Source: Klebsiella pneumoniae (GTDB taxonomy: Bacteria; Pseudomonadota; Gammaproteobacteria; Eutrophobiales; Eutrophobiaceae). Taken from it: a stretch of DNA of 44,106 bases. Both the position numbers and the translations under genes were made by a program. The stretch covers positions 1 to 44,106 of the forward strand of contig CAMBTO010000009.1 of NCBI GenBank assembly GCA_945870865.1, given 5' to 3'. The notes beneath the pieces are model-generated. The model saw only the letters and a program-made list of their open reading frames with translations. It did no database searches and was not told the DNA's origin. Positions 2,228 to 40,911 of this stretch are shown here, in pieces. The first letter of the stretch is position 1. Each line of letters opens with the position of its first letter.

Positions 2228-3652
2228 TTAGGATGCCTGCAAGTTTACTGCAAAACACCGGCTCATGTCGCTGGCCAGTGTCAAGGTATGAAAGTCACGC
2301 AAGGCCTGTTTTAAGGCGGCGGCTCGTGCGTTATCAAGCAGACCCTGTACACAGGCATCATATTTTTCCCAGTACTCGGTCATAGTAAACGGCGCAGCGA
2401 TACTGCCCCGCGGCATCCTGGCGGTCAGCATGTATTGCCTGCCATCCGTGGTCAACACGGTCAGCCGGGTCGGGAACTCGCTTTCGAGTTTGTCTACCGG
2501 TCGCAACTGGATTCGGTTGAAGTACATCCTCAGCTCCGGTCTCGCCACGGCCTCGTCAGTAAAGTCCTGCAGGCCGCAATAACCGGTTGAGAGCAGACAG
2601 GCCAGTGCATACTGCATCGAGAACTTTGCCTCCAGACCGTTCACAGGTTTATGGTAAAACAGGTTGTCCAGATGCGATTTGGGTGCCTCAACGATTACGG
2701 TAATCACACTATCAGGGCTGATCGGATTGGTCTGTAGTATCTCCAGCAATAAATCCATTGCCCGATGGGCACTGCCACAGTTGGGAAACCGTTTTACCCG
2801 GAAACCGTATTCAGTGATGTGCAGCGGTTCGCCAATATTTCTGGTTTCAAAGGTCAGCGTCTGGCCATGTTCAGCACCGGTCACCCCCTTTCTCAGTTCG
2901 TCACGATCCGGTCCTACCATCAACGTATTCATGCCGGTCGGGCCATCGAGTGTGTGTTTACCCGCCTTCATACCATTCTGTGCCAATGCAGATGCCACCA
3001 CGCCACCTTTCGCAGCGAGGCCGGCATGTAATGACTTGGCCATCGAGCCAAACTGGGACATAAAGCCGGACGACATGCTGCTGGCCAGCGACAAGGCATG
3101 TGCGCTCTGCGCGGCATCCAGTTTCAAAAGGCGGGCACAGGCCGCCGCTGCGCCAAAAACACCAACGGTCGCCGTTGCATGCCAGCCACGATTTCGATGA
3201 ACCGGATTCACGCCCTGTCCCACCCTGCCCATGATCTGCAAGCCGACGACGTAGGCATCCAGCACATCCATACCGGAAATTTTATGCGTGTCAGCCAGCG
3301 CTAATATGGCGGGATAGAGGACAGCCGAGGCATGCGCCTTCGGCGGGTCAAAATTATCATCAAAATCAAGAGCATGGGCAGCGGTGCCGTTGACAAGGGC
3401 GGCCCAGGGGGCGGCAAACTTGTCAGTTGTACCGGTAATATTAGCACCACTATCAGTACCACCCCAGGATCGCACAGTCTCCAGAGCAATCAGCGCGGAT
3501 GGTTCGATCGCGCCGGGTATCATCACCGCGACCGTGTCAATCAACTGACGGTGGGCACTCTCGTATGCCGCAAGACTCCATTCAACCGGGCAGTTCGCAA
3601 TCCATTCGCCATAGGCATCAACAACATTGACGGGGGTAGATTCTGTGCTCAT
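2228..3652 (-). CDS. MmgE/PrpD family protein
   Basis: 474 residues, matching the MmgE/PrpD superfamily, whose members include 2-methylcitrate dehydratase (PrpD), cis-aconitate decarboxylase and iminodisuccinate epimerase. Recognisable blocks are AHALDFDDNFDPPKAHASAV near residues 90-110, RNRGWHATATVGVFGAAAA around 155-175 and the MAKSLHAGLAAKGGVVAS block around 205. No prpB, prpC or acn gene is nearby, so a methylcitrate role is not supported, and the substrate remains open. It lies between an EVE protein (21 bp upstream) and a nucleotidyltransferase (23 bp downstream), all on the minus strand and probably one transcript. Confidence 0.85.
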   Translation of the reverse strand: MSTESTPVNVVDAYGEWIANCPVEWSLAAYESAHRQLIDTVAVMIPGAIEPSALIALETVRSWGGTDSGANITGTTDKFAAPWAALVNGTAAHALDFDDNFDPPKAHASAVLYPAILALADTHKISGMDVLDAYVVGLQIMGRVGQGVNPVHRNRGWHATATVGVFGAAAACARLLKLDAAQSAHALSLASSMSSGFMSQFGSMAKSLHAGLAAKGGVVASALAQNGMKAGKHTLDGPTGMNTLMVGPDRDELRKGVTGAEHGQTLTFETRNIGEPLHITEYGFRVKRFPNCGSAHRAMDLLLEILQTNPISPDSVITVIVEAPKSHLDNLFYHKPVNGLEAKFSMQYALACLLSTGYCGLQDFTDEAVARPELRMYFNRIQLRPVDKLESEFPTRLTVLTTDGRQYMLTARMPRGSIAAPFTMTEYWEKYDACVQGLLDNARAAALKQALRDFHTLTLASDMSRCFAVNLQAS

Positions 3653-25343: not shown

Positions 25344-25805
25344 TTAACTGGCTAGCTGGCTAACCGCCCTGTGTTTGGCACGGATATAGTCGGTATGCGA
25401 TACATACAGCAAGTCGGCTATCTTGCGAATAAAGTACTCTTCATACTTGTGAATCACACTGTCCGCCCCAGCGATTCGCCACAACAGTTCAATGACCGTA
25501 GTTTTTTCCTCACGGCTGAGGTCGGTATTGATAGCGCGGGTAAATTCATACAGGGAACTGGCATCTTTGACCTGCTGCCTCGCCAGGTCAACCAGCGCAA
25601 CGGCCTCGGACGGATCAAGATGAAAATGTTCGCGGATAGCCGCCACGATGACGTCATGCTCGGCGGCGTCTATTCCTTCATCAGCGAGGGCGATCTCCAG
25701 CATCAGTACAGCAGCACAGAGTTCCAGGGTGTGTTCGCGGCTGGTATTGCCTCCCGCGCCAGCGGTCAGCGACTGGCGCAGGAAATCCGTTATTGACCTC
25801 AGCAT
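25344..25805 (-). CDS. TerB-family protein
   Basis: 153 residues resembling the TerB/DUF533-like all-helical domain. Acidic-rich helices LEIALADEGIDAAEHDVIVAAIREHF and TTVIELLWRIAGADSVIHKYEEYFIRKIADLLYVS show the paired D/E pattern of TerB metal-binding sites. The first 24 residues (MLRSITDFLRQSLTAGAG) form a separate amphipathic helix. Many proteobacteria carry such single TerB genes outside tellurite operons; their role is unknown, and no other ter genes are present here. It lies 9 bp downstream of hspQ on the same strand. Confidence 0.75.
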   Translation of the reverse strand: MLRSITDFLRQSLTAGAGGNTSREHTLELCAAVLMLEIALADEGIDAAEHDVIVAAIREHFHLDPSEAVALVDLARQQVKDASSLYEFTRAINTDLSREEKTTVIELLWRIAGADSVIHKYEEYFIRKIADLLYVSHTDYIRAKHRAVSQLAS

Positions 25806-25814
25806 GGGTAAGGA

Positions 25815-26174
25815 CTAGTTCGGGCGCCAGGTGGTATTTTTATAGCGACCGTTATTGAATTCGTCAAAATAGGCGCCCACCAGCGGATGATTTATCTGCT
25901 CATCAGAACTGTCTGCCGTCAGGTCCTGCTCAGACACATAGGTCTCCTCAAGCACATTATTGACCAGTACCTTGTACCAGGGCTGGTCCTTGCGCGGACG
26001 GGTGACGGTAATATCTTCATACCAGCCATCGGAACCCAGAAACACCGGGTCGATATCAATGACCACACCACGGTATTTGAGCTGCTTATGCAGGACGACC
26101 TGGCCCATGCCAAACCGGGCAACCGCCCTGGTCACATTTTTGTCCTGCCCGACAATCACTTTATTCGTTATCAT
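25815..26174 (-). CDS. hspQ: Heat shock protein HspQ
   Basis: 119 residues of the HspQ/YccV-like domain, which in E. coli binds hemimethylated DNA, promotes DnaA degradation and acts as a Lon specificity enhancer. Conserved parts are FGMGQVVLHKQLKYRGVVIDIDPVF, the WYEDITVTRPRKDQPWYKVLV strand pair and ETYVSEQDL. The first 14 residues vary between species. It is followed closely by the TerB-like gene and divergent from rsmE across 74 bp. I cannot identify a heat-shock promoter in that short gap. Confidence 0.93.
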   Translation of the reverse strand: MITNKVIVGQDKNVTRAVARFGMGQVVLHKQLKYRGVVIDIDPVFLGSDGWYEDITVTRPRKDQPWYKVLVNNVLEETYVSEQDLTADSSDEQINHPLVGAYFDEFNNGRYKNTTWRPN

Positions 26175-26248
26175 AAGCCGATTGTATCCTCAAACGGTTG
26201 GCCCTGTATGCAGGGAATGCTGTTGTTAATACTAATGTAATGGTCTGA

Positions 26249-26995
26249 ATGAGAAAAACAAGGGTCTATACCAAATCTATCCTGGCAGTTAACACTATCG
26301 TCAGCCTGCACGACGAGGCGGCCCATCATCTGGGAAATGTACTGAAGGCACGTACAGGCGACACCGTTATCCTGTTTAACGGCACGGGAGGCTGCTATGA
26401 CGGCGAGATACTGACCGTCGAGCGCAAGGCAATTACCATACGGCCGGTACGGTTTAATCCCGCTAATAAGGAATCCCCGCTGCAGCTGACGCTGGCACAG
26501 GGCATCTCGCGGGGCCAACACATGGACTACACCGTACAGAAAGCGGTTGAGCTGGGCGTGACCCGCATCGTCCCGCTGTTTACCGAATTCAGTAATGTCC
26601 GGCTGGAAGAAGACCGGGCACGCAAACGTCGTGAACACTGGGAAAAGATCATCACGGGGGCCTGTGAACAATCCGGACGCAACCGCTTGCCCGAACTGTA
26701 TGACGCGATGCCACTGGAAGAATGGGTAAGTACCGAATCGACCTCGCTCCGACTGCTGATGCATCCTGAAGGCGGACAAGGCCTGGCAGAGTTGACCGGA
26801 AACAGCGGTGATATCACGCTGCTCTGTGGTCCAGAAGGCGGACTCAGCCAGAATGAAATTGAATACTCACTTACCTGCGGATATATGAAGGTATCTGTGG
26901 GTCCCCGGATCCTGCGCACCGAGACAGCGGCCGTTGCCGCGATAGCCGTGTGTCAGGCGCTTAGGGGGGATATGATGTATAATCCGAACTCATAA
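26249..26995 (+). CDS. rsmE: 16S rRNA (uracil1498-N3)-methyltransferase
   Basis: SPOUT-class methyltransferase that methylates U1498 of 16S rRNA. 248 residues: an N-terminal PUA-like domain with the HHLGNVLKARTGDTVILFNGTG block, the LAQGISRGQHMDYTVQKAVELGVT region, the EQSGRNRLPEL segment and the knot motif LLCGPEGGLSQNEIEYS followed by LGPRILRTETA-type sequence (VGPRILRTETAAVAAI). The gene starts 17 bp before gshA, so they probably form one operon. In many gammaproteobacteria rsmE precedes glutathione genes. Confidence 0.96.
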   Translation: MRKTRVYTKSILAVNTIVSLHDEAAHHLGNVLKARTGDTVILFNGTGGCYDGEILTVERKAITIRPVRFNPANKESPLQLTLAQGISRGQHMDYTVQKAVELGVTRIVPLFTEFSNVRLEEDRARKRREHWEKIITGACEQSGRNRLPELYDAMPLEEWVSTESTSLRLLMHPEGGQGLAELTGNSGDITLLCGPEGGLSQNEIEYSLTCGYMKVSVGPRILRTETAAVAAIAVCQALRGDMMYNPNS

Positions 26996-27012
26996 GAATA
27001 AGCCGAGGCATC

Positions 27013-28335
27013 ATGGTACCAAGAACCCTACACCCTGTTCCTGACCTGTCGACCGCGCTGAACGGACCTTTGCTGAAGGTAGAGGAACAGATTATTGCCC
27101 ACCAGGCCGAGGTTGAGTCCTGGTTCCGCAGCCAGTGGCGCCTGACCCCGGCCCCGTTTTATTCCTCGGTAGACCTGCGCAACTCCGGGTACAAGATTGC
27201 CCCGGTCGATACCAATCTGTTTCCGGCCGGGTTTAATAACCTGAACCCCGACTATGAGGCGCTCTGTATCCAGGCGCTGCAACTGGCTGTTGAACATACC
27301 GGCAAAAATATCGACCGGATCTTGCTGGTGCCGGAAAACCACACCCGTAATATGTTTTACCTCGAAAATGTGGCCGTGCTGGTATCCCTGATCGGCAAGG
27401 CAGGGTTTGATGTGCACATAGGCTCGCTGATACCCGGTTTGACAGCACCACAGACCATTGCGCTCGACTCTGGCACTACCCTGAAGCTGAATCCACTGGT
27501 TCGCACCGGTGACAAGATCAGCGCCGACGGTTTTGTCCCCGACCTCGTGCTTTTGAATAACGATATGTCAGGCGGACGCCCCGCAGTACTGGAGCAATTG
27601 CAACAACCGATCATCCCGTCATTGTCGCTGGGTTGGTCCACCCGGCTGAAATCGGTACATTTTCGTCACTACAAGGAGATTGCCGAGGAGTTTTCCCGGC
27701 AGATAGGGATAGACCCGTGGTTTATCGACCCGCTGTTTCGCAACTGTGGCGAAATTGACTTCATGAAGAACGAGAGTAACCACTGCCTGGAAAGCCATGT
27801 GAATACACTGCTGAAGGCGATCCAGAAGAAATATGATGAGTATGGGGTAGATCAGAGGCCGTATGTCGTTGTTAAGGCCGACGCCGGGACCTACGGCATG
27901 GGTGTGATGATGGCCCACAGCGCAGAAGAACTGCTCGACATGAATCGTAAGGAACGGACGCGCATGTCGACCACCAAGGAAGGCCAGAAGGTCACGAAGG
28001 TGATCATCCAGGAAGGTGTCTATACGAACGAGACCTGGGGTGAGGACAAGACGGTCGCTGAATCGGTCGTGTATATGATCGACAAAAACGTGGTCGGCGG
28101 TTTCTACCGCGTCCATCCGAAGAAGGGTGCAGATGAAAACCTGAACTCGCCCGGCATGCAGTTTGAACCACTTGCGTTTGAGGACTGCTGTAACTCCCCG
28201 GACAAGGAGCAGTCGCCGGATGCCCACCCGAACCGGTTTTATACCTACGGTGTGATCGCGCGTCTGGCCAATCTGGCAGCGGCCAGGGAGACAGCGAATC
28301 TGGACTTACCTACTGACCCTTCAGCTTTTGTCTGA
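27013..28335 (+). CDS. gshA: Glutamate-cysteine ligase, proteobacterial 'ferrooxidans' type
   Basis: First step of glutathione synthesis. 440 residues of the TIGR02049-type GshA, unrelated in length and order to the E. coli 518-residue enzyme. Visible blocks are the SSVDLRNSGYKIAPVDTNLFPAGFNNL start, VPENHTRN, LLNNDMSGG, and the ATP-grasp-like VVVKADAGTYGMGVM followed by GGFYRVHP. It follows rsmE by 17 bp. gshB, which often comes next in related genomes, is absent; instead the 3' end overlaps the convergent response regulator by 26 bp. Confidence 0.92.
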   Translation: MVPRTLHPVPDLSTALNGPLLKVEEQIIAHQAEVESWFRSQWRLTPAPFYSSVDLRNSGYKIAPVDTNLFPAGFNNLNPDYEALCIQALQLAVEHTGKNIDRILLVPENHTRNMFYLENVAVLVSLIGKAGFDVHIGSLIPGLTAPQTIALDSGTTLKLNPLVRTGDKISADGFVPDLVLLNNDMSGGRPAVLEQLQQPIIPSLSLGWSTRLKSVHFRHYKEIAEEFSRQIGIDPWFIDPLFRNCGEIDFMKNESNHCLESHVNTLLKAIQKKYDEYGVDQRPYVVVKADAGTYGMGVMMAHSAEELLDMNRKERTRMSTTKEGQKVTKVIIQEGVYTNETWGEDKTVAESVVYMIDKNVVGGFYRVHPKKGADENLNSPGMQFEPLAFEDCCNSPDKEQSPDAHPNRFYTYGVIARLANLAAARETANLDLPTDPSAFV

Positions 28336-28975
28336 TATCAGCAATATGCCGTCGACTAACGGTCAGTTTTTCCGGCATGTCACGCAGTTGCACCAGATAA
28401 CTCCCATCATTCGTCTTTTCCAGCACCACGATATGATCTAGCGACACCAGCGCATTGCGATGTATGCGCAGAAATTGACCTGCAAATTCCTCTTCGAGAT
28501 CCTTCAGCGATTCATCAATCAGTGTCTCCCGGCCGCCCTGGTACACCGAGACATATCTATTGTCTGCCCTGAAACACTGTATCTGATTGATCGATATCAT
28601 CACGATCCTGCCCTGACTGATCGCGCTGATATGGGTGCGCCAGGTCTTGCCTTGCACAGCCTCGATATGCCCGATCAGAGATCGGTTGATCAGCGCCGCC
28701 TTGTCGAGCGCCTGTTTTAATCTCTCCAGCCTGACCGGTTTTAGCAGATAGTCGACCGCATTCGCCTCGAAAGCCTCTACGGCATGTTCGTCGTATGCCG
28801 TTACAAATATGACAGTAGGGGCGGGGTTCAGTGTGGCCATATGGAAGGCAGACTCCAGCCCGTCCATTACCGGCATATGGATGTCGAGCAACACCGCATC
28901 ATTGCGGATATTCAGCAACAGGTCGGCAATACGTTGCCGCGCCGGTAATTCATCATCAACGATCAGTATCTTCAT
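28310..28975 (-). CDS. LytTR response regulator, AlgR-like, with shortened receiver
   Basis: Receiver plus LytTR DNA-binding domain as in Pseudomonas AlgR (248 residues); here 221. The acidic pair D8-D9, phospho-acceptor D31 (LLDIHMP), T59 and K79 are all present. However, D31 comes 23 residues too early: AlgR has it at 54. The missing part corresponds to the end of helix 1, strand 2 and helix 2, joined as LLLNIRNDAVLLDI, and the reading frame is kept. The LytTR domain (about 112-221) is complete, with FLRIHRNALVSLDHI. Its ATG overlaps the ancestral stop of the kinase gene by 4 nt. DNA binding may survive, but normal phosphorylation is doubtful. Confidence 0.85.
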   Translation of the reverse strand: MKILIVDDELPARQRIADLLLNIRNDAVLLDIHMPVMDGLESAFHMATLNPAPTVIFVTAYDEHAVEAFEANAVDYLLKPVRLERLKQALDKAALINRSLIGHIEAVQGKTWRTHISAISQGRIVMISINQIQCFRADNRYVSVYQGGRETLIDESLKDLEEEFAGQFLRIHRNALVSLDHIVVLEKTNDGSYLVQLRDMPEKLTVSRRHIADIRQKLKGQ

Positions 28976-29931
28976 CGCAGTAACGGAATCGTGACAGAAA
29001 CACGGTAGCTGTCCTCATCCTGGCTAACCTATAGCAGGTCGTCGTGGCTGAAAAACGAGCCCAGACGCTGGCGGACATTGTCCTGGGCAATCCGGCTGCC
29101 GGTATGTGCCGGTGATTTACTGGTCGCCTGCGAGAACGGATTTTCAATAATGATGTGGATACCTTCCTGCACCAGGCTAACGAGTATCGTGATCGTACCG
29201 CCCTCGGGTAACGGCTCGATACCGTGGTAGATAGCATTTTCGAGCAGTGGCTGGATACTCAGTGCAGGCAGCGGTGTGTTCAGCGGCAACTCGGCGAGCT
29301 GCCAGACCGCCTTCAGGCGCGGCCCGAGCCGTTGTTGCTCTATCCGCAGATAACGCCTGCTCAGTGCAATCTCGTGACCAAGCGTGCTCGGTCTCTGCGA
29401 ATCCTGCAGGCTGGCGCGAAACAGATCGGACAGGTCCTCTACCACTTCCTCCGCCAGCGCGGGGTTACGGTGGATCAGGCTGGCAATAGTATTCATGCAG
29501 TTGAACAGAAAGTGCGGTTTTATCCGCGATTGCAGCGCCTGGAAACGCGCCTCAGATTCGGGGGCAACCCGGATACGCCACTGGTGTTGTACATAAAAAC
29601 ATCGCAACGCCATCGCCCACACAATCGCGCTGATCCCGATTATCGGTAACAGAAAGACAGTATGGCCCTGACAGAAAAAGTTATACCCTATTTCCCGGTT
29701 GAACACCCACCACGCCAGCTCGGTGATAACCAACGTGACAAGCAAGGTCGTGACATAACTGATGGTTGCGACCCCGTGATCACTGCACTGTTGTAACCAG
29801 CGACGGCTCACACACAACACCGCGGTACAACTGAGCGCGACCCATTCGATGAACAGCGAATACATCGCCAGATTGTAAATCCGGTTGTCCACATAGGGTG
29901 GCTGTGCCAGCGTAAGAACTATCGCCAGCAA
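28972..29931 (-). pseudogene. AlgZ/FimS-like sensor kinase with premature amber codon
   Basis: LytS-type kinase: about four membrane segments, then the His_kinase block ARFQALQSRIKPHFLFN (H140 from the TTG at 29931) and an ATPase domain with the N-box LLENAIYHG. Reading stops at TAG 29031-29029, just after RQRLGSFFSHDDLL. The same frame then continues for 18 codons of plausible C-terminal strand (DEDSYRVSVTIPLLR) to a TGA at 28974-28972 that overlaps the regulator ATG, the normal coupling for this pair. The N-terminus is also odd: family-like sequence (FLPDFCNARTVFVVILLAELL) lies upstream of 29931, but the frame up to its previous stop has no ATG, GTG or TTG. Either decay or sequence error. 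Confidence 0.75.
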
Positions 29932-30095
29932 CTCCGCGAGCAGGATAACGACAAATACTGTCCTGGCATTGCAAAAGTCGGGCAGAAAGGTCGCCGAATT
30001 CTGTCTGTCCTGTCTTATCTGAACAAATGCCTGATAGCCTGCGACAATGTTAGAGTTATACTATCAAAATCAACAACAGCACGGTTAACTACAAA

Positions 30096-31511
30096 ATGAC
30101 ATCAAAGCATACAACAGTAAAGCCATGGGGTGGTCGATTTCACCAGGCTACCGACAGTTCTGTGGAAAAATTCACCGAATCGGTCTCCTTTGACTACCGT
30201 CTTTACCGTCATGATATCACCGGCTCCATCGCCCACACCCGTATGCTGGTGAAAACAGGCATTATCAGTGGTGATGATGGCAACAAGATAATCAATGGCC
30301 TGAACGCCATTCTTGAACAGATTGAAAACGGCCAGTTCCAGTGGAAAATGGAACTGGAAGACGTACACATGAACATCGAGGCCGCGCTGGTCGAGTCTAT
30401 CGGTGAGCCTGGAAAGCGGTTACATACCGGTCGTTCGCGCAATGACCAGGTAGCTACTGACCTTCGGCTGTACCTGCGCGACCAGGTCGACACCATTCGT
30501 ATGCTGCTGCACACGGTCATGCAGGCACTGATCGGCCTCGCCGAACGTGAGGCGGATACGATCATGCCCGGCATGACGCATATGCAAATAGCCCAGCCGG
30601 TCACATTCGGTCATCACATGATGGCCTGGTTTGAAATGTTGAAGCGTGATGACCAGCGTCTGCTCGACTGCCGCAAACGTATCAATGTAATGCCACTCGG
30701 TTCGGCCGCCCTTGCCGGCACCGATTTCCCGATAGACCGTTATTGCACAGCTGAACTGCTCGGCTTTGACGCCATTTCGGCAAACTCGCTTGATGCGGTC
30801 AGCGACCGCGACTTTGCCATCGAGTTTGCGTCGACCGCCTCTATCATCATGATGCACTTGTCGCGCTTTTCCGAGGAGCTGGTGTTGTGGATGAACCCGA
30901 TGTTCGGGTTTATCGATCTGGATGATGCCTATTGCACCGGTTCGTCGATCATGCCGCAGAAGAAAAATCCGGACATCCCGGAGCTGGTGCGTGGCAAGAC
31001 CGGACGCGTCTATGGCGACCTGCTGGCGCTTCTGACGCTGATGAAGGGCCAGCCGCTGGCCTATAACCGCGACAATCAGGAGGACAAACTCGCCCTGTTT
31101 GATGCGATCGACACGGTAGAGTCCTGCCTGTCCGTTTATGCTGGTCTGATCCCGGCGATTACGGTCAAGCGCGACACTATGCTGAAGGCGGCCCGACAGG
31201 GTTATGCCACGGCCACTGACCTTGCCGATTATCTGGTCAAGACCGGCCTGCCGTTCCGCGATGCACACGAGGCCGTCGGCCAGACGGTCAGTTATGCAAT
31301 TGCAGCAGGCAAGGAATTATCGGCATTGACGCTACAGGAACTAGGCCGGTTTTGCCCTAATCTGCGCGAGGACATCTATACTGTTCTTGAACTTACAGGC
31401 TCTGTAAATGCCAGAGATCATATCGGTGGCACCGCCCCCGGCCAGGTGAAGATTGCAGTCCGGGAGGCACATAACTATCTGGAGATAGCCAAACCAAAAC
31501 AGGCGGAATAA
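30096..31511 (+). CDS. argH: Argininosuccinate lyase
   Basis: Last step of arginine synthesis: argininosuccinate to arginine and fumarate; tetramer of the fumarase/aspartase superfamily. 471 residues with all three conserved regions: TGRSRNDQV (111-119), the [12 protein letters not shown] block carrying H162, and the flexible signature loop [12 protein letters not shown] (282-293). It diverges from the damaged sensor kinase, the algZ-argH arrangement also seen in Pseudomonas, so the neighbourhood is ancestral. No other arg genes are nearby. The AsmA gene begins 2 bp after its stop. Confidence 0.97.
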
Positions 31512-31513
31512 TC

Positions 31514-34500
31514 ATGAAAGCGATAAAAATTGTCGGTGCATTATTCGGGCTGTTACTGATCAGCCTTGTTGCCGTAGTCATATATGCTTCCACACTCGAC
31601 CCGAATGCTTACAAGGGCATGATTGCTGACAAGTTCACTGCAGAGACCGGTCGTACACTGACACTGGACGGTGACATCCGGCTGACCTATTACCCGTGGC
31701 TGGGGTTTGAACTGAACAATGTCACTATTGGAAACGCGCCGGGTTTCGGAAAGACGCCGTTCTTCCGCGCCGACCACGCGATGGTGCGGGTCAAACTGAT
31801 GCCACTGTTACGCGACCAGTACGAGATCGATACGGTACGACTGCACGGTACCACGATCAATCTTTCCAAAAACGAAAATGGTGTGAGCAACTGGGCCGAT
31901 CTGGCCAAAGCAGATTCATCTGCCAACACTGGTAATACCGCCGGCCTGCCGCTGGCCACCGTGATTCTCGGTGGCGTTGATATCCAGAATGCGAACCTGT
32001 CCTTTGACGACAAGTCGACCGGAACACTCTACAACATCAACAATATGGTGATGAGCACCGGTGAGCTAGTATACGGCGAGCCGATCCAGTTCAATCTGAC
32101 ACTGAACGCACAGGCAAATAAACCGAAGCTGGGAGCTGATGTCAAACTGGCTGGCACTGTCATCTATGACCTTAATAACGAGACCTTCGCAATCACGCCG
32201 ATGGAGCTGCTAACAACTCTGGCCGGACCAAATGTACCGAACCGCAGTGCTGACATCAATCTGAAGACCGCGATCAATATCAATCTGGCTGACGAGACAC
32301 TCGCGATCAGCGATCTTACGATTGACGCGCTCGGCACGAATCTCACCGGCACGATCAACGCCACCAATATCCAGTCCGCTACGCCGTCTTACCAGACCAA
32401 TCTGAAACTGACCGGTAACGATCTCGCCCTGCTCTTTAAAGTCGCCGAGATCGAACCACTGGCCAGCCAGATCACCCGACTGAACAATCGCTCGTTCGAT
32501 TTCTCTGCTGCTGTTAATGCGGACATGCAACGCGGTGATGTGGACGTATCCGGCCTGCAGGCCAACCTGCTCGGCGCCAATATCTCGGGCGACATCAAGG
32601 CCAGCAATATACAGTCAGGCACCCCGGCCGTACGCGGTACGCTGAATGCATCCGGCCCGGATCTGCCGACCTTGATGCAGATACTGGGACAGGTGCAGGG
32701 CGGAGCAGACTCTGCACTGACTCAGTACGGGACGAAGCTGGCACGCGTCCCGAACAAGGCATTCGTAATCAATGCGAACTTTGATGCCGACATGAGTACC
32801 GGCAACGTCAAGGTACCGGTGCTGACAGTTGATGCACTTGGAATCAGGCTTGGCGGCACACTGACGGCCATAGACATGCAAAAGTCTGGCGGGTCAATCA
32901 ATGGACAGCTGGATCTCGCCGCAGACAATCCGCAGGCACTGTTGTCTGCGCTAGATCAGGTCGACCTTGGTGAGGTCACCCAGTCGGTCAACCTGAAGGC
33001 CGCTGTCAGCGGTAACCGTGCCGACCTGAAGATCAACCCGCTGGACCTGACCGTAGTACTGTCTGGCGACAAGATCCCGAACTCCCCTGTCAATCTCGGC
33101 CTGAACGCAGATACCCGTGTCAATCTGGACAAGGAAACACTGGCACTGGAAAACTTCAAGCTGACCGGTCTTGGCCTCGACATGAGTGGCAAGATCAATG
33201 CAAGCAGTATCCTGCAATCTCCCGAGTTTAATGGTGACATTAATATCGCCGAATTCAGCCTACGCAAGTTCATGCAGCAACTGAACCAGGAAATACCGGT
33301 GACCTCCGATACGAAGGTCTACGAAAAGGTATCGCTCGCCACCACCTTTGATGGTGCGGCCAACAAGATTAACGTCAGCAAGCTCGCACTGGTACTGGAT
33401 GACACCAACCTGAACGGCACCCTTTCCGTGACCGACTTTGATAAACCGGCAGTACAGTTCGGGATCAATATCGATCAAATCAATGCCGACCGCTATCTGC
33501 CGCCGCCCCCGGCCGACGGCCAAAACCGTCCGGTCACACCAGAGACCGCCGCCGGTGCCGCCGCACAATTGCCGGTTGAAACACTGCGCGGTCTGAATGC
33601 GAAAGGTGATCTGAAGATGGGCCAGTTGGTGATCTCGAAGGCAAAGATGTCAGACATCGTCCTGTCGCTCGACGCAAAGGACGGCCGGATCAATCTGGCG
33701 TCGGTTGCAGCAAACCTGTACGCGGGCACCTATTCAGGCGATATTGGGCTTGATGCTACTGCTGCACTGCCCGTAATCAACTTCAAGTCTACCCTGCAAG
33801 GCGTGAAGATCGAGCCGTTGATGACCGATTTTACCGGCGCTGCCAATGTCAGTGGCACCGGCGATATCGAGATGTCTGTCACCGCTACCGGCGCAGACAG
33901 CACCGCACTGAAACGTTCACTCAGCGGCAATGGCAAAGTCGCACTGAAAGAAGGTGTTTTACGAGGGGTGGATGTGGCGAAGGTGCTGGAGCAGGTCGAG
34001 GTCATGATCGAAAGCAAACGCCCGATGGATATTGATCGCGGTGTGGAGACCCCGTTTGATACGTTCACCAGCACACTGGAGATTAATAATGGCGTGGTGG
34101 CAAGTAATGACCTGATGATCAAGGCACCGGGACTGCAGGTCGCCGGCAAAGGCACGGTGATTAACCTCGTCAATGATACACTGGACTACACGCTGATCGC
34201 CTCGGCCGATGCGAGCAGTGTCACTCAGGGCACTGAACGTTACAACGTCGGTGGTTACACTGTACCTATCCGCTGTAACGGACTGGTTAACAGCCCGAAA
34301 TGTGTACCTGATGCCGGAGAGATTATTAAATTCGCCGTGCAGAAGGCCGTGGAGAAAAAACTCGGTGATGTGTTGCAACGGGCAATTGGTCTGCCTGCTC
34401 AGCAACAGCAACAACCGGCAAGTGAACCTGCTGCCACGGAACAAACAACAGACTCCTCACAAGCACCCTCACTGGATCCTGGTACTGTCCCCGCAGAACA

Positions 34501-34588
34501 ACCACAAGAACAGCCACAGGAAGCGCCACCTGCTGACCCGAGAGAACTGCTACTGAACAAGGCACTGGAGAGTATCTTCAAGCGCTAG
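31514..34588 (+). CDS. AsmA family protein
   Basis: Large envelope protein of the AsmA/YhdP/TamB bridge-like group, implicated in outer membrane assembly and phospholipid transport. 1024 residues: one N-terminal membrane anchor (about 5-27, IVGALFGLLLISLVAVVIYA), the LTLDGDIRLTYYPWLGFELNNVTIGNAPGF block typical of AsmA, then long repetitive beta-rich sequence with several NLDKETLALENFKLTGLG-type units (about 250-560). The AsmA-like C-terminal domain follows (about 700-920). The last 90 residues are unusually rich in Q, P and E. Topology predicts a periplasmic body. It starts 2 bp after argH and is followed 9 bp later by an SRPBCC gene. Confidence 0.92.
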   Translation: MKAIKIVGALFGLLLISLVAVVIYASTLDPNAYKGMIADKFTAETGRTLTLDGDIRLTYYPWLGFELNNVTIGNAPGFGKTPFFRADHAMVRVKLMPLLRDQYEIDTVRLHGTTINLSKNENGVSNWADLAKADSSANTGNTAGLPLATVILGGVDIQNANLSFDDKSTGTLYNINNMVMSTGELVYGEPIQFNLTLNAQANKPKLGADVKLAGTVIYDLNNETFAITPMELLTTLAGPNVPNRSADINLKTAININLADETLAISDLTIDALGTNLTGTINATNIQSATPSYQTNLKLTGNDLALLFKVAEIEPLASQITRLNNRSFDFSAAVNADMQRGDVDVSGLQANLLGANISGDIKASNIQSGTPAVRGTLNASGPDLPTLMQILGQVQGGADSALTQYGTKLARVPNKAFVINANFDADMSTGNVKVPVLTVDALGIRLGGTLTAIDMQKSGGSINGQLDLAADNPQALLSALDQVDLGEVTQSVNLKAAVSGNRADLKINPLDLTVVLSGDKIPNSPVNLGLNADTRVNLDKETLALENFKLTGLGLDMSGKINASSILQSPEFNGDINIAEFSLRKFMQQLNQEIPVTSDTKVYEKVSLATTFDGAANKINVSKLALVLDDTNLNGTLSVTDFDKPAVQFGINIDQINADRYLPPPPADGQNRPVTPETAAGAAAQLPVETLRGLNAKGDLKMGQLVISKAKMSDIVLSLDAKDGRINLASVAANLYAGTYSGDIGLDATAALPVINFKSTLQGVKIEPLMTDFTGAANVSGTGDIEMSVTATGADSTALKRSLSGNGKVALKEGVLRGVDVAKVLEQVEVMIESKRPMDIDRGVETPFDTFTSTLEINNGVVASNDLMIKAPGLQVAGKGTVINLVNDTLDYTLIASADASSVTQGTERYNVGGYTVPIRCNGLVNSPKCVPDAGEIIKFAVQKAVEKKLGDVLQRAIGLPAQQQQQPASEPAATEQTTDSSQAPSLDPGTVPAEQPQEQPQEAPPADPRELLLNKALESIFKR

Positions 34589-34597
34589 GTCGAATCA

Positions 34598-35173
34598 ATG
34601 TTCCGCCTGATCTATAGCGGAGTGCTGCTACTGGCGTCCTTTGCTGTACAGGCGGGAGAGGTGCAACATGCCTATGTGACTTACCGCGATGGAGACTACA
34701 GTGTCGACATTGCGGTCAAGATAAACGGTGCCAGGGATACGGTTTACGCTATTGCCACCGACTACAAACAAATGTCCCGTCTGAGTGATATGATCATTGA
34801 GGCCGACCTGATAAATTATACAGACGCGAACGGTAATACCGTTGTGCTCAGGCGCATGGTCACAAAATCCTGCGTACTGGGATTCTGCTTTGATGCGATT
34901 CTGATTGAGGATCTGTGGGAGCAGGAAAGCGGGACTATCAAATCGGTATTCATCCCCGAAGAAAGCGACTTTCTGTACGGCGAGGCCATCTGGCAGATTT
35001 CAAGCGTGGACGCTAACCATACGCTGGTCACGTTTAGCAGCAAATTCAAACCGGCCTTCTGGATACCGCCTTTGATTGGACCTCTATTCATCAAGCGGAT
35101 GATGCTGGACGCGGCCAAACAGTCGATACAAAACATTGAAGATATAGCTACCCTTGAAACGGCTCTCCCCTGA
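34598..35173 (+). CDS. SRPBCC (START-like) protein with signal peptide
   Basis: 191 residues. A signal peptide (MFRLIYSGVLLLASFAVQAG, cleavage likely after QA-G) precedes a START/polyketide-cyclase-like domain, YSVDIAVKINGARDTVYAIATDYKQMSRLSD, with the characteristic helix-grip pattern. KSCVLGFCFDAI carries two cysteines. The C-terminus has a hydrophobic helix, WIPPLIGPLFIKRMMLDAAKQSI. Periplasmic lipid- or hydrophobe-binding is a fair inference given the fold and the AsmA neighbour. The end overlaps the mutY start by 20 nt, so the two are coupled. Confidence 0.8.
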   Translation: MFRLIYSGVLLLASFAVQAGEVQHAYVTYRDGDYSVDIAVKINGARDTVYAIATDYKQMSRLSDMIIEADLINYTDANGNTVVLRRMVTKSCVLGFCFDAILIEDLWEQESGTIKSVFIPEESDFLYGEAIWQISSVDANHTLVTFSSKFKPAFWIPPLIGPLFIKRMMLDAAKQSIQNIEDIATLETALP

Positions 35174-36215
35174 TTTACTGAAATGGTTTCGTCATTCCGG
35201 ACGTCATGACCTGCCCTGGCAACAGGACAAAAATCCCTATCGCGTGTGGGTATCCGAGATCATGTTGCAGCAGACGCAAGTAAAGACGGTTATTCCCTAT
35301 TATGAAAGGTTTATGCAGCGCTTTCCTGATGTCGACACTCTTGCTGCCGCGCCGGCAGATGAGGTATTACACCTGTGGTCCGGCCTCGGTTACTACGCCC
35401 GCGGTCGCAATCTGCACAAGGCCGCCCACATGGTCATGACGGACTTCAACGGGGAGTTTCCATATGATATCGATAGACTGATGTCCCTGCCCGGCATCGG
35501 ACGTTCAACCGCCGGCGCCATCCTCGCGCTCGGCCTGCAACAGGTCCATCCGATACTCGACGGTAATGTCAAACGCGTGCTGACCCGCTACCACGGTATC
35601 AACGGCTGGCCCGGTGACAAGTTGGTTGAAGACAAACTGTGGGTGATCGCTGCACAGGAAACACCTCGACGTAATATCGCTGACTACACCCAGGCAATTA
35701 TGGACCTCGGTGCAACTGTTTGTACTCGCAATAAACCCCGATGTGACTTCTGTCCACTCTCAGTCAATTGTTTTGCCCGTACCCATAACCAGCAGTCGGA
35801 ACTGCCGACCCGCAAAAAATCGAAACAGCTATCGGTCAGACAGACTGTGCTGGTAATCATTGAGAATAAACGTGGCGAGGTCCTGTTACAGAGACGGCCA
35901 CCTGCGGGCATCTGGGGTGGCCTGTGGAGTCTCCCGGAATGTCCGTCCAATGAAGCGCTTCCGGCATGGCTAAATAGACGATTCGGTAGTAAAGTAACGA
36001 CACTGACAGCGCTGCAACCACTGCGACATACGTTCAGTCATTTTCACCTCGATATCCACCCTTACCGGGCAAAATTACGTGCAAATGACGTCGCAGTCAG
36101 GGACGAGGACACCTGCTGGTATCGGCCTGACGGTCAGACCAGACTCGGCATGGCGGCGCCGATCATAAAGCTGCTGTCCACATTAACTGAACACACTGCC
36201 GGAGCAGATGAATGA
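35154..36215 (+). CDS. mutY: A/G-specific adenine DNA glycosylase
   Basis: Removes adenine mispaired with 8-oxoguanine. The start is TTG at 35154 inside the upstream gene, because the family N-terminus ([16 protein letters not shown]) begins right there and no ATG serves. 353 residues: catalytic E35 ([10 protein letters not shown]), Hh[13 protein letters not shown], catalytic D136 ([11 protein letters not shown]), and the 4Fe-4S ligands C190, C197, C200 and C206 with C-x6-C-x2-C-x5-C spacing. The C-terminal NUDIX-like domain includes FSHFHLDI. yggX follows with a 4-nt overlap, the standard mutY-yggX order. Confidence 0.97.
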
Positions 36216-36484
36216 CATACATGGTCAATTGCGTAAAGCTGGGACGTGAGGCCGAAGGCCTGCATGCACCACCGTATCCGGGCGAACTCGGCAAACGTGT
36301 CTATCTGAATGTCTCGAAGGAGGCATGGAAGATGTGGCTGGGCCACCAGACCATGTTGATAAACGAGTACCGCCTGACCCCGATCGAGCCAAAAGCCCGT
36401 CAATATCTAGAAACCGAGATGGAAAAGTACTTTTTCGGCGACGGATCGGAAAAACCGACGGAATTTATCACCCCGGACAAATAA
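36212..36484 (+). CDS. yggX: Probable Fe(II)-trafficking protein YggX
   Basis: 90 residues of the YggX family, linked to iron handling and protection of Fe-S enzymes from oxidation; MutY, an Fe-S protein, is one proposed beneficiary. The conserved C7, [24 protein letters not shown] and [10 protein letters not shown] blocks are present. The start overlaps the mutY stop (ATGA). tRNA-Phe follows 93 bp downstream. Confidence 0.96.
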
Positions 36485-36541
36485 GCTGGCTTGACGAACC
36501 TGCTTTTGCTCTGTTTAATACGCGCTTCATTTTGTAAACCC

Positions 36542-36561
36542 CCGGATCTTCCCTGATCCGG
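36542..36561 (+). other. Hairpin between yggX and tRNA-Phe
   Basis: CCGGATC (36542-36548) and GATCCGG (36555-36561) form a perfect 7-bp stem with a 6-nt loop. It lies 57 bp past yggX and 16 bp before the tRNA. With no T-tract it could be a weak terminator or a 5' leader structure of the tRNA precursor. Confidence 0.35.
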
Positions 36562-36577
36562 ACAAGCGGTACACCAG

Positions 36578-36653
36578 GGCCAGGTAGCTCAGTTGGTAGA
36601 GCAGGGGACTGAAAATCCCCGTGTCGGCGGTTCAATTCCGTCCCTGGCCACCA
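36578..36653 (+). tRNA. tRNA-Phe (anticodon GAA)
   Basis: 76 nt with CCA encoded. The acceptor arms GGCCAGG and CCTGGCC pair fully. The anticodon stem GGGGA/TCCCC encloses CTGAAAA with GAA in the middle. The T arm is GGCGG TTCAATT CCGTC with one weak pair, and the D arm AGCTCAGTTGGTAGAGC is standard. Confidence 0.98.
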
Positions 36654-36665
36654 TTTCTCAAATAC

Positions 36666-37871
36666 TCAAACGGCAAGCCATTGCAAAACACCTTGTCCAA
36701 CGGCATGCCCACTTGCAAAACAGGCTGTGAGCAAATAACCTCCGGTTGGCGCCTCCCAATCTATCATTTCACCGACGCAGAAAACACCAGGCAGACTCTT
36801 CAACATCAGATGCTCATCCAGCGCGTCGAAGGATACCCCGCCAGCGGAGCTAATCGCTTTATCCAGTGAGCGGGTGGCGGATAACGTCACCGGTATATTT
36901 TTAATATACGTAGCAAGCCGTAACTCTGTAAATTCAGCTTTGGGTACAAACTCCCGTAACAAGCCTGCCTTAACGCCTTTGATTCCGACGGTCTTTTCCA
37001 GATGATTCGCCATCGAACGTGACTCGCGCGGCCTGGATAATTTTTCTCTCAACTGATCTTCGGTTTTATCGGGGACCAGATCCAGATGCATCACCGCACT
37101 ACCATGCGCCTCAATCTCCTCCCGCAGAAGCGCAGAACACGCATAAACCAAACTGCCCTCCACGCCTTCTTTGGTGATGACGAATTCTCCCTGCTGACGA
37201 AATTCACCGGCCGAGAGAACGACAGACTTGACGGGCTGCCCTTCATACTTTTCCTTGAATACGGGACTCCAGTCGACCTCGAACCCACAATTGGAGGAGC
37301 GCAATGGCTCGACCTTGACGCCTATCTCGTGCAGCCATTCAACCCAGGCGCCGTCCGAGCCGAGTCTTGGCCAACTGCCACCGCCGAGCGCAAGAATAAC
37401 GGCATCGGCCTGCACCGTGACATCACCCTCGGGCGCGTTGAACTGTAGAGTCCTGTCAGGGTGTATCCCTGTCAGTTTGTGGCGCAGGTGCAAGGTCACG
37501 CCGGAGCTGTTTAGTCGTTGCAGCCAGGCCCGCAGCAGCGGACTCGCTTTCATCTCCACCGGGAAGACCCGTCCGGAGGAACCCACAAAGGTTTGCACAT
37601 CCAGTCCATGCACCCACGCAAGGAGTTGCTCGGCACCGAATGTTTTTAAAAGAGGTGCGATCTGCTCGCGGCGTTTACCATAACGTGAGGCAAAAACATC
37701 GAACGGATCGGAGTGGGTGATATTCAGCCCGCTTTTGCCTGCCATCAGAAACTTACGACCGACAGACGGCATGGCGTCGTATACGTCTACGTATATGCCT
37801 TGCGCGCTGATGACCTCGGCTGCCATTAGGCCTGCGGGGCCGCCGCCGATGATTGCTACAGTTTTTGTCAT
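36666..37871 (-). CDS. HI0933/YhiN family flavoprotein
   Basis: 401-residue FAD-binding protein of the HI0933-like (TIGR03862) family. It starts with the dinucleotide fold MTKTVAIIGGGPAGLMAAEVISAQG, then the signature GRKFLMAGKSGLNITHSD. VILALGGGSWPRLGSDGAW lies in the middle, and the ending GVFCVGEMIDWEAPTGGYLLTACFASGHAVGQG binds FAD. The physiological substrate is unknown for this family, although it is often annotated as an aminoacetone oxidase or BaiN-like reductase. The 3' end converges on tRNA-Phe, 12 bp away. A terminator for the gene upstream lies at 37889-37915. Confidence 0.9.
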   Translation of the reverse strand: MTKTVAIIGGGPAGLMAAEVISAQGIYVDVYDAMPSVGRKFLMAGKSGLNITHSDPFDVFASRYGKRREQIAPLLKTFGAEQLLAWVHGLDVQTFVGSSGRVFPVEMKASPLLRAWLQRLNSSGVTLHLRHKLTGIHPDRTLQFNAPEGDVTVQADAVILALGGGSWPRLGSDGAWVEWLHEIGVKVEPLRSSNCGFEVDWSPVFKEKYEGQPVKSVVLSAGEFRQQGEFVITKEGVEGSLVYACSALLREEIEAHGSAVMHLDLVPDKTEDQLREKLSRPRESRSMANHLEKTVGIKGVKAGLLREFVPKAEFTELRLATYIKNIPVTLSATRSLDKAISSAGGVSFDALDEHLMLKSLPGVFCVGEMIDWEAPTGGYLLTACFASGHAVGQGVLQWLAV

Positions 37872-37888
37872 GGTCTAATGATAAAGAT

Positions 37889-37915
37889 AAAACTGCTGAT
37901 TCGCTCAGCAGTTTT
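37889..37915 (-). terminator. Rho-independent terminator after PEP-CTERM gene
   Basis: AAAACTGCTGA and TCAGCAGTTTT form an 11-bp perfect stem with a 5-nt loop (TTCGC). On the minus strand the stem ends in TTTT and is followed by ATCTTTATC. It lies about 90 bp past the PEP-CTERM stop and 18 bp before the flavoprotein start. Confidence 0.75.
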
Positions 37916-38006
37916 ATTGAGATATGAACTTTTTTAGCGGACGTTCACCGTTAGCTTGAACCAGGGGCGTTTATGCTTGCTGGACAGTAACGTGTGTTGT
38001 CCTCGA

Positions 38007-38576
38007 CTATGCCTCCCGCTTCCTGCGGCGAGGCGCAAAACCCAGCATCGAAATGCCCGCGAGCATCAACCCCAGTGAGCCTGGTTCCGGTACAGAAGCA
38101 TGACCAAAGTCCAGGGTTGCTGTCAGGTATATGCTCGGGTCGAAAGACAGCCCCTTCCAGTCGAACATTACATAATCACTACCGAAAGCAAGTCTGGACG
38201 AATCCCACCCGACCATATTGCGACTAACGAAAACGTTTTGCAGGACATAACCGCTGCTGTCGTTAAGGCCAGAGACGACCAAACCATTAAAACTCAAGGG
38301 CACTGAACTACAATCAAAGGGCCAGGTGGCCACACACGACATCGTTTCTGCCGCCCACGTAGCCGAAACGGGGAGGTAATCAAAGGTGACATAGATGCTG
38401 TCCGCTTCAACGTTTATCTGGTATGCATAGGGATAGAACCAATAGAAAGTATAGATATCTGAAGTGCCAACCACTACGGGGAAGGAAGCTGGTGGCGGCG
38501 CACCCATCATCGGTCCTTCGTGACCTACTGTCACGGTATCGCCGACCAGCGTCGCGTTGGCCGTTCCAGCCCACAT
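38007..38576 (-). CDS. PEP-CTERM sorting domain protein, start region frameshifted
   Basis: Secreted protein with a C-terminal PEP-CTERM tag: VPEPGSLGLMLAGISMLGF then RRRKR, the signal that EpsH/exosortase cleaves. The 160-residue body is rich in aromatic and small residues, with no domain recognised. The ATG at 38576 lies in the middle of a signal peptide: the same frame upstream reads AGSITAALWIACTMWAGTANA but meets a TGA with no start codon. An ATG at 38622 with a good GGAG 7 nt before it is one frame off; deleting one T of the following ATT would give MIAGSITAALWIAC. So a single-base insertion, or sequence error, probably separates the start from the body. The 38623-38732 gap upstream shows no other gene. 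Confidence 0.75.
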   Translation of the reverse strand: MWAGTANATLVGDTVTVGHEGPMMGAPPPASFPVVVGTSDIYTFYWFYPYAYQINVEADSIYVTFDYLPVSATWAAETMSCVATWPFDCSSVPLSFNGLVVSGLNDSSGYVLQNVFVSRNMVGWDSSRLAFGSDYVMFDWKGLSFDPSIYLTATLDFGHASVPEPGSLGLMLAGISMLGFAPRRRKREA

Positions 38577-38732
38577 CGTGCATGCAATCCATAAAGCAGC
38601 CGTAATAGAGCCTGCTAATCATGCTACAACTCCGAAAGATTCGTGGTGGCCAGCTTTCACTCTGTTCACAGATGCCTACTGATAGTAATGTATAAGACCA
38701 GTTTTAGTATCATTTGTGGTCTAGGAAATAAC

Positions 38733-38746
38733 TTGAGCTAGATCAA
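38733..38746. promoter_or_regulatory. FNR/ANR-like box
   Basis: TTGAG-CTAG-ATCAA matches the FNR consensus TTGAT-N4-ATCAA at 9 of 10 positions. It lies 37-50 nt upstream of the putative start of the small exported gene. It may control the peptide-hydrolase pair according to oxygen, but no clear -10 box was identified, so this remains a motif match. Confidence 0.4.
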
Positions 38747-38818
38747 ACAATCCCTATATTTCAATAATAAGGAGTAAAACGACTGAGAAATCCAGTCAGT
38801 CAAAGATCCCTCGAAAAC

Positions 38819-38974
38819 ATGTTCCTGACGTTTTCTACGGCCTCCATCCTTGTAGGCGTCGGCTACGCATGGGATGACAAACCGGGACACCACCAAAACT
38901 TCTCGTTAATTGACAATAATACGTACATCCGGGAAACTCATTGGCAGATTTATATGAATGGGGAGTGCTCGTGA
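38819..38974 (+). CDS. Small exported peptide coupled to hydrolase gene
   Basis: ATG 38819 opens a 51-residue frame starting MFLTFSTASILVGVGYAWDD, a signal-peptide-like segment with cleavage likely after GYA. The remainder is short and polar (HHQNFSLIDNNTYIRETHWQ), with one cysteine, and ends ECS. The ribosome-binding site AAGGAG (38769-38774) is 8 nt from a CTG at 38783 in the same frame, so a 63-residue form starting RNPVSQRSLEN with a CTG start is possible. The stop TGA overlaps the GTG start of the hydrolase by 4 nt (GTGA), good evidence that this is translated. No family recognised. Confidence 0.5.
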   Translation: MFLTFSTASILVGVGYAWDDKPGHHQNFSLIDNNTYIRETHWQIYMNGECS

Positions 38975-40911
38975 TCAAATATCAAAATGTCGACATTTAT
39001 AGACTGCGTCAGCAGCTATTAAGGTCTGTGTTGCCTTGTGCAAGTATGTTCATTGCCAGCCTGTTTACCGGCAATTTGATGGCACAGGAGGGTTGTAAAT
39101 ACCTGGAGCAGTACATGGCGCCGACGGAGATGCCGGAAGATGACTGGAACTCGGCGATGGCCGGTCCACGGCCGGGAGAGGTGGAGCAACGGATGGTGGG
39201 TCCGGAAGGATGCAGCATCGTCGAAGAGAAGATTATTAAAAATGCACACGGTGTCGCCTATCGCCACATAACAATGGCGATCCACGGCACGGTCTTTGGC
39301 TATATGCCGAGAAACTCTCGCTTGCTGCCCCCGATTGGTACGGGTGTCGATGGCGAGGGCCGCGAGAACACGTTTGATGATCAGGTGTTTATCATGCAGG
39401 CCAGGGGCAATATGGGGCCCTACGTGCCAGGTGTGGCGCGTTATCGCTATGCCGAGAAGACACCTTCGAGTGTCGAGATCCTGATCCCGCAGAATGCGGC
39501 CGACTGGAACGGTAATATGTGGGTGCTGGTACACGGTGCGTCGCGCTATCCTGCGTTGCAATTTTTTCCGCGCGAACCGGGCAAGTTTAACCGCTATACC
39601 GAGGCAAGTGAGTCAGCCGGTGCATTGATGGATATGGGTTCGGCTGTAATCTGGACCCGACGCGACGCGACCGGCAATGATGAAGACCTGGTCAAGACGA
39701 CTGATCCGGTATCGAACACTGTACTGCTGGACGACGGTACCGAAATGGGTGTGACGGGCACTGCGGTGATGGGTCTGAATAACAACCTCGGGCTGATCCG
39801 CGATTACACGGTGATCAGCCGCAATTACGTGATCGAGCAACTGGGCAAACCACCCGAGTATCTGTTCTTCCGCGGACATTCCGCCGGGGGTGCTTCTGGC
39901 CGGGCGTTTTTGATCGTGCGTGGTATGAACACCGATCACGCCGGCAAGAAACTGTTCGACGGTTTTTTTCTTGACGACAGTGCCGGTGGGCGTGGTGCAC
40001 CCACCTATTTCTGGGATGCGACCGTGGTCGATGAGACCGGTGCATTCCGGCTGCAACCAACCGAAACCGATCAGCTCAGTTTTGATGCGAACCAGCGTCG
40101 TTTCATGAGCCCCGTTATTGAGGTGATACATGCGGCCTACGCCGGGGGCAATACCTCGACCGTGCCGCAGATCTTCGAGCGGGTATATCCGACCTATGCC
40201 AACTACAAGCGCGAGAACGCCCGCCTGAATATCGAGAAGGGTCTCGGTGATATCTGGAAGTCGTATGAGATTGCCGATGTCAGCCATGCCGACGCGACCG
40301 CCGAGGCCAAACGTTATCCCGAACTTGCGAAAGACATGATCGATATCGGCGGTGTGGCCATTGCGCTTGAACAGGCACTGGTAGACTGGGTAAGAACTGG
40401 CAAGAAACCGCCCGAGACCCGCGTCGACGCCGTTGATGTGTGGGATGTGGACGATAAGGCCGGTCCGGCGATTCAGATGCCCGAAACTGCCTGCCCACGC
40501 GGCGTATTCCGCACCTATATGAACCGCCCGGACGGTACCGCCGTCGGTTCAAGCCCGGCGCTGTTCGTCCCGTTCCTCACCGAGCTGCGTCCGCAGATCA
40601 ATGCAAACCAGGATCCCCCGCCTGGTTTTAAGGACGAGTGGCTGGAGCCGCTCAACCGCGAAGGTTACCTGGTAGACATGACCGACAGCGGTCAACGCGA
40701 TACCCGCCCGACGATCGAGCAGGTCTGGCACCAGCGATACCGTGAAGGGGAAAAGACCGGTGTTTTGCGCCCCTATGAAAACCTGACCCGTAAGCGTTAC
40801 GTCGAGTGTGTCTCTGGCGTAGTCACCGCGTTACACACTGACGGTCTGCTGACCCCCGAGGCGAAGCTGTGGTATATCGAGAAGGCGAAGACCGATGTGA
40901 TTGGGGAGTAA
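38971..40911 (+). CDS. Secreted alpha/beta hydrolase (Abhydrolase_10-like)
   Basis: 646 residues from GTG 38971, chosen because GGGGAG lies 5 nt before it and it overlaps the upstream stop; an earlier in-frame TTG (38941) adds 10 residues without support. A signal peptide (about 1-38, cleaved near NLMA-QE) precedes an alpha/beta hydrolase domain with the oxyanion strand WVLVHGASRYP and the nucleophile elbow GHSAGG (S304). The C-terminal 200 residues contain TACPRGVFRTYM. The type is often annotated as an alpha/beta hydrolase domain protein or tannase-like esterase. A carboxylic ester substrate is likely; phthalate or another aromatic ester is a guess from the neighbouring decarboxylase and Rieske genes. 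It converges with the next gene, 17 bp apart. Confidence 0.75.
   Translation: MIKYQNVDIYRLRQQLLRSVLPCASMFIASLFTGNLMAQEGCKYLEQYMAPTEMPEDDWNSAMAGPRPGEVEQRMVGPEGCSIVEEKIIKNAHGVAYRHITMAIHGTVFGYMPRNSRLLPPIGTGVDGEGRENTFDDQVFIMQARGNMGPYVPGVARYRYAEKTPSSVEILIPQNAADWNGNMWVLVHGASRYPALQFFPREPGKFNRYTEASESAGALMDMGSAVIWTRRDATGNDEDLVKTTDPVSNTVLLDDGTEMGVTGTAVMGLNNNLGLIRDYTVISRNYVIEQLGKPPEYLFFRGHSAGGASGRAFLIVRGMNTDHAGKKLFDGFFLDDSAGGRGAPTYFWDATVVDETGAFRLQPTETDQLSFDANQRRFMSPVIEVIHAAYAGGNTSTVPQIFERVYPTYANYKRENARLNIEKGLGDIWKSYEIADVSHADATAEAKRYPELAKDMIDIGGVAIALEQALVDWVRTGKKPPETRVDAVDVWDVDDKAGPAIQMPETACPRGVFRTYMNRPDGTAVGSSPALFVPFLTELRPQINANQDPPPGFKDEWLEPLNREGYLVDMTDSGQRDTRPTIEQVWHQRYREGEKTGVLRPYENLTRKRYVECVSGVVTALHTDGLLTPEAKLWYIEKAKTDVIGE

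Follow-up and report, generated by a model that had tools for sequence, protein, structure and literature searches.

Probable recent inactivation of an algZ(fimS)-algR two-component pair in a draft bacterial genome

In the stretch of DNA analysed here (44,106 nucleotides, referred to as the window; contig 9 of a 2.17-Mb, 97-contig draft genome), the frame of an AlgZ/FimS-like sensor kinase is split by an in-frame TAG at 29031-29029 (minus strand), and the locus raises the question of whether the kinase and its partner regulator still signal, are rescued by readthrough, or have been lost. The initial annotation had claimed the TAG, 18 family-like codons behind it, a TGA overlapping the regulator start by 4 nt from which the old kinase stop could be identified, and a deletion in the regulator; it took both partners to be damaged and suggested that the signalling path had been lost, with amber readthrough as the alternative. 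These sequence claims were borne out, and the locus is best explained by loss of the signalling path, supported by the amber codon, a lost start, the receiver deletion and replacements at conserved sites. The algZ(fimS)-algR pair has very probably been inactivated recently in the window genome. Comparisons were made chiefly with G001, the closest relative and of the same genus, and with G004, another congener. The features concerned are listed below.

28310 to 28975, minus strand: AlgR-like LytTR response regulator, 221 aa; receiver without 22 residues, LytTR domain present
28884 to 28900, minus strand: deletion junction with a single copy of a 17-nt stretch; two copies in G001, 66 bp apart, 16/17 identical
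28972 to 28974, minus strand: old kinase stop TGA; 4-nt overlap with the regulator ATG (28975-28973), as in G001, G004 and G002
28975 to 29028, minus strand: orphaned kinase tail, 18 codons; with the amber codon, spans strands 329-333 and 337-344 of the modelled G001 kinase
29029 to 29031, minus strand: premature amber codon TAG; an amino acid there in 103/103 aligned homologues (best 80 of 551 plus 31 loci)
29032 to 30018, minus strand: AlgZ/FimS-like sensor kinase remnant, 329 codons from old start to amber
30016 to 30018, minus strand: lost start codon ATA; ATG at the same place in G001 and G004

The homologue set comprised 80 loci, the best of 551 that were confirmed, and 31 loci from other searches, 111 in total, and the two genome collections within it may share further entries. 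The window copies (L001, L002), the reference (L003), L006, L032 (on the same contig as L014), and L018, L024 and L034 (kinases cut by contig ends) were set aside, leaving 103; L006 was left out owing to its out-of-frame regulator, though its kinase also extends past the amber site.

The kinase remnant retains a membrane part, a PF06580 His_kinase region (E 8e-23, profile 1-81 of 81) and most of the ATPase domain, is 91% identical to the G001 kinase over 300 residues, and is adjoined by a REC-LytTR regulator; no NCBIfam family matched the kinase. A profile search of the whole genome returned one PF06580 and one LytTR match, both belonging to this pair. The neighbouring genes are taken from their sequences to be argH (argininosuccinate-lyase-like) and gshA. 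A PF06580 LytS-type kinase followed by a REC-LytTR regulator, the two overlapping by 4 nt in close relatives, and the divergent orientation of the pair relative to the argH-like gene are shared with the AlgZ(FimS)-AlgR system of Pseudomonas and other Gammaproteobacteria. Unlike AlgZ-AlgR systems, the window pair has a lost start, a kinase amber codon and a receiver 66 bp short. The downstream neighbour is a gshA-like gene; in Pseudomonas, by contrast, hemCD are cotranscribed with algZR, according to PMC5790918.

Translated across the stop, the kinase frame reads ...FFSHDDLL, the stop, and then VSQDEDSYRVSVTIPLL; the sequence after the TAG, VSQDEDSYRVSVTIPLLR, gives 18 codons including the last, followed by TGA 28974-28972. 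The corresponding tail reads LLQVSQDEHSYRVSVTIPLQR and then a stop in G001 (L003; kinase 91% identical), and LLHVSQLDSSYKLTITIPLKA and then a stop in G004 (L004; kinase 74% identical), uninterrupted in both and overlapping the regulator start by 4 nt as in the window, which establishes the TGA as the original kinase stop. Judged from this alignment, the 18-codon tail is homologous rather than a chance match. The amber is codon 330 and the kinase loses its last 19 residues, while all 17 positions 330-346 are occupied in 103/103 aligned kinases (best 80 of 551 plus 31 loci). In a model of the G001 kinase (pLDDT 85) the last two strands lie at 329-333 and 337-344, and the amber is thus predicted to take out the second strand and nearly all of the first; with the TAG following codon 329, a complete ATPase domain including its last two strands is lacking in the window kinase. 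The idea that the kinase exists in a conserved shortened form was rejected, as 103/103 aligned homologues (best 80 of 551 plus 31 loci) continue past the site.

The lost start is a lesion additional to those in the initial annotation. In the window kinase frame no ATG, GTG or TTG was found from the in-frame stop upstream as far as TTG 29931, and this first possible start (29931-29929) is codon 30, within residues 18-38 that are modelled in G001 as the first helix, leaving no usable start codon ahead of the first membrane helix. The ATA and the TAG are each one C:G to T:A difference from G001. A kinase without a start codon and with the TAG would be expected to yield no working sensor.

The partner regulator has 221 residues, compared to 243 in G001 and 233-253 in 99 aligned homologues (best 80 of 551 plus 31 loci), being 66 bp, or 22 codons, shorter than the G001 gene. 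The 22 missing residues belong to the receiver and are present in 99/99 aligned regulators (best 80 of 551 plus 31 loci). A complete receiver domain is lacking: Pfam Response_reg covers only profile positions 43-110 of 111 in the window regulator and 1-110 in the G001 protein. LytTR is over its cut-off with a normal score (E 1.6e-22), and in NCBIfam the best matches of both the window and G001 regulators fell under the cut-off. The direct repeats of G001 lie at 2532 and 2598 of L003 and one is retained in the window; since the missing 66 bp equal the repeat spacing, the loss apparently occurred via slippage between the repeats. The phospho-acceptor is kept as Asp31 of the shortened regulator (VLLDIHMP), in an invariant alignment column, and the residue two positions after it, Arg in 99/99 regulators (best 80 of 551 plus 31 loci), is His in the window.

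The displaced kinase stop lies 53 nt ahead of the regulator ATG, and no Shine-Dalgarno-like stretch was seen by eye ahead of that ATG, which suggests that stop-start coupling between the genes has probably been lost. With the coupling broken, the regulator would probably be made poorly, and with the receiver loss it would probably no longer be switched by phosphorylation.

The age of the damage was approached through substitution patterns. Pairwise dN/dS against G001 is 0.100 for the kinase and 0.065 for the regulator, similar to the neighbours argH (0.060) and gshA (0.064), and these low values indicate that both genes were constrained for the greater part of the period after divergence from G001. 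With G004 as outgroup, N:S counts for the kinase were 17:36 on the window branch, one of the 17 being the lost start, and 10:24 on the G001 branch; those for the regulator were 10:17 and 3:23 on the same two branches (p = 0.054), with one codon doubly counted among the 10. For the pair together, N/S did not differ significantly between branches (p = 0.13) or from the nine control genes described below on the window branch (p = 0.17), and the counts by themselves do not prove relaxed constraint. Of 25 scored replacements on the window branch, 6 hit positions whose ancestral residue is kept by 70% or more of homologues (best 80 of 551 plus 31 loci); on the sister branch, 0 of 12 did so. A conserved-site rank test, confined to the pair genes and resting on few changes, gave p = 0.007 pooled and p = 0.041 for the kinase alone; it leaves out D4E (a column without homologues) and the second count of the one regulator codon. 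Kinase Tyr140 (97/103) is Cys and Asn308 (91/103) is Ser in the window, and regulator Lys162 of LytTR (96/99) is replaced on the window branch (each count among the best 80 of 551 plus 31 loci). By dN/dS, the check proposed with the original claim, the pair still looks constrained; the branches differ in the location of their replacements. The share of the branch spent without constraint was estimated as 2% (kinase), 13% (regulator) and 5% (both), with intervals from below 0 to 34%. This estimate says only that the loss is recent, which agrees with the still low dN/dS and non-significant N/S tests. The start loss, the amber and the 66-bp deletion are absent from G001, G004 and the aligned homologues (best 80 of 551 plus 31 loci).

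It is improbable that the kinase alone was lost and that the shortened AlgR-like protein, from which one receiver strand-helix unit has been removed, still acts as a phosphorylation-independent (constitutive) LytTR regulator. Its frame is open, the deletion is in frame, the LytTR domain scores over the cut-off, and a model of the shortened protein has a mean pLDDT of 85 with four receiver strands; in Pseudomonas, PMC8787478 describes AlgZ-independent activation of alginate by AlgR. However, the model reaches a pTM of only 0.55 and is not evidence of folding in the cell. Structure predictors tend to fold deletion variants anyway. Further points against a constitutive regulator are the altered LytTR site Lys162, the higher N:S on the window branch than on the sister branch, and the former coupling of its translation to the kinase stop. 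A related proposal is that the locus was rewired, the kinase being lost and the slippage-shortened AlgR kept as a phosphorylation-blind LytTR regulator; if this were true the lesions would mark rewiring and not simple loss, but it is judged quite improbable.

That the lesions reflect sequencing or assembly error in an otherwise intact pair is also unlikely. The genome is a draft of 97 contigs, and a single C:G to T:A change separates each point lesion from the G001 sequence. Against this, three lesions fall within one operon, whereas nine neighbour genes (25347-40908), picked as open frames present in both G001 and G004, align over their full length and without gaps between the window and G001. 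ATG starts were found in all three genomes for 7 of these 9 controls, those at 35160 and 38965 being unscored because their starts were cut by hand, and six more window genes shared with G001 had no gaps. Deletion between repeats of 17 nt is typical of slippage, and most assemblers would not collapse a repeat as short as this. The conserved-site replacements accompany the lesions, which also argues against error. The choice of open frames as controls means that any heavily damaged gene would have escaped notice.

Elsewhere in the window, at 38010-38618 (minus strand), two in-frame stops lie just upstream of an open frame at a place where the G001 gene continues; the end of the encoded protein resembles what we take to be a PEP-CTERM signal. 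Depending on its true start, this gene may be interrupted too. In that case stops absent from G001 would lend something to the error explanation, the damage may extend beyond the algZ-algR pair, and the control argument is slightly weaker.

A kinase lacking 19 residues and started elsewhere, at the ATA or at TTG 29931, might still signal with its His_kinase region and most of its ATPase fold, but this is very unlikely: the lost segment forms the last two modelled strands and is present in 103/103 homologues (best 80 of 551 plus 31 loci), a start at TTG 29931 would drop the first part of the first helix, and the receiver domain of the partner is damaged. 

Amber readthrough or TAG recoding to give a full-length kinase, the earlier alternative, is extremely improbable. 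The in-frame TAG followed by homologous codons is what the locus has in common with programmed readthrough and TAG reassignment, the 18 codons past the TAG being still family-like, but unlike TAG reassignment systems the genome has an intact RF1 (prfA; 548 bits, cut-off 423) and no suppressor tRNA match, and TAG is an ordinary stop. Anticodon CTA occurred in 0 of 40 tRNA matches in this draft, from which a few tRNAs may be missing; ARAGORN typed 39 of the 40, and the remaining one, truncated by the end of its contig, was read by eye as anticodon TGT. Nine other window genes, the regulator included, end in TAG: in seven the stop occupies the codon position that it has in G001 or G004, with TAA there in G004 for three of the seven, and in the remaining two it lies within 1 and 5 codons. 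The loss of the kinase start codon is a further point against readthrough. Both checks proposed with this alternative, for a suppressor tRNA and for other TAGs (run on the window genes), thus gave it no support, and TAG recoding was rejected.

Inactivation of the pair can be set against its distribution among relatives. A kinase match was found in 37 of 53 genomes of the family, the broken window copy included, and the pair is intact in G001, G002 and G004. Both kinase and LytTR were absent from eight genomes of the family in a 58-genome sample (G003, G018, G020, G026, G029, G030, G035 and G036), G026 having a completeness of only 83%. In the congener G003 the gshA-argH gap is about 0.55 kb and holds an algZ N-terminal relic carrying stops (L196, 895-1510); the relic comprises 177 bp at 69% identity to G002 (E 5e-15), and the remainder of the pair is gone. 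In three g17 genomes gshA and argH are separated by about 50 bp that contain no gene. Two other loci were recorded in passing. In G033 (L006, contig 352) the regulator frame ends after 20 codons though the LytTR domain follows, which could be a frameshift or an assembly fault in a genome with 6% contamination. On L042 (CAMCBY010000464.1), a contig labelled as a Klebsiella pneumoniae MAG, there is an AlgZ-AlgR-like pair of full length with 46% identity to the window kinase; this may be a mislabelled or mixed bin.

A possible reason for the decay is loss of the machinery that the pair controlled. In Pseudomonas, phosphorylated AlgR activates the fimU-pilVWXY1Y2E minor-pilin operon, as given in PMC4064291 and PMC8787478; the "pseudogene" mentioned in PMC4064291 is pilY2. 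This is the best-known Pseudomonas role of phospho-AlgR. Profile searches of the window genome gave no match to PilW and nothing over the family cut-offs for PilQ and PilB, with paralogues present below the cut-offs. Its pilM-pilQ operon has lost about 4.56 kb compared to G001 (L216), and the deletion scar, at about 2432-2438 of L215 (G000 contig 22, 20500-29000), joins pilM at about codon 79 to pilQ at about codon 663. PilM and the PilQ secretin were identified at this locus by Pfam, and the genes between them were named by order. G004 (L208, contig 1, 2511-3409) has its own deletion, from pilM at about codon 106 to pilQ at about codon 519, with algZR intact, so that pilus loss can precede loss of the pair, and in the window genome the regulator may have followed. 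Two further fragments in the window genome are probably decayed pilus or secretion genes as well: a type II/IV secretion ATPase fragment (T2SSE) in L206 (G000 contig 17, about 2810-3400), the match to which contains a TAG, and a T2SSE plus MshEN fragment in L207 (G000 contig 76, 3500-4471), the match to which omits the middle of the profile.

We lean towards the explanation that the pair lost its selective value after loss of the type IVa pilus: with pilM-pilQ cut, the value of the pair would be gone and the pair would decay, a sequence of events less certain than the inactivation itself. PilQ is lacking in 9 of 17 genomes with the pair lost or broken and in 5 of 36 with the pair present (53 genomes, p = 0.006, uncorrected for kinship), and in 5 of 9 compared to 3 of 24 among the 33 good genomes (p = 0.020, also uncorrected). 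This association rests largely on genus g15 and few independent events. There are counter-examples, in that G003 has lost the pair and kept PilQ, PilB and PilW, 5 of 6 g17 genomes lack the pair yet have PilQ, and G004 has lost pilus genes and kept the pair.

The locus is a case of ordinary gene decay, known in kind and caught early. As in bacterial pseudogenes formed after loss of a controlled function, there are several lesions, losses in relatives and a deletion of the presumed target machinery; it does not differ in kind from these, and its value lies in the graded series of states within one family, intact (G001, G002 and G004), broken (the window genome), reduced to a relic (G003) and with no gene (three g17 genomes). 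Within the same genus there are, in addition, two pilM-pilQ deletions with different end points, one in a genome with the pair intact and one in a genome with the pair decaying. Together, the natural series and the two deletions let one ask whether regulators disappear once their target machinery has gone, and at what speed.
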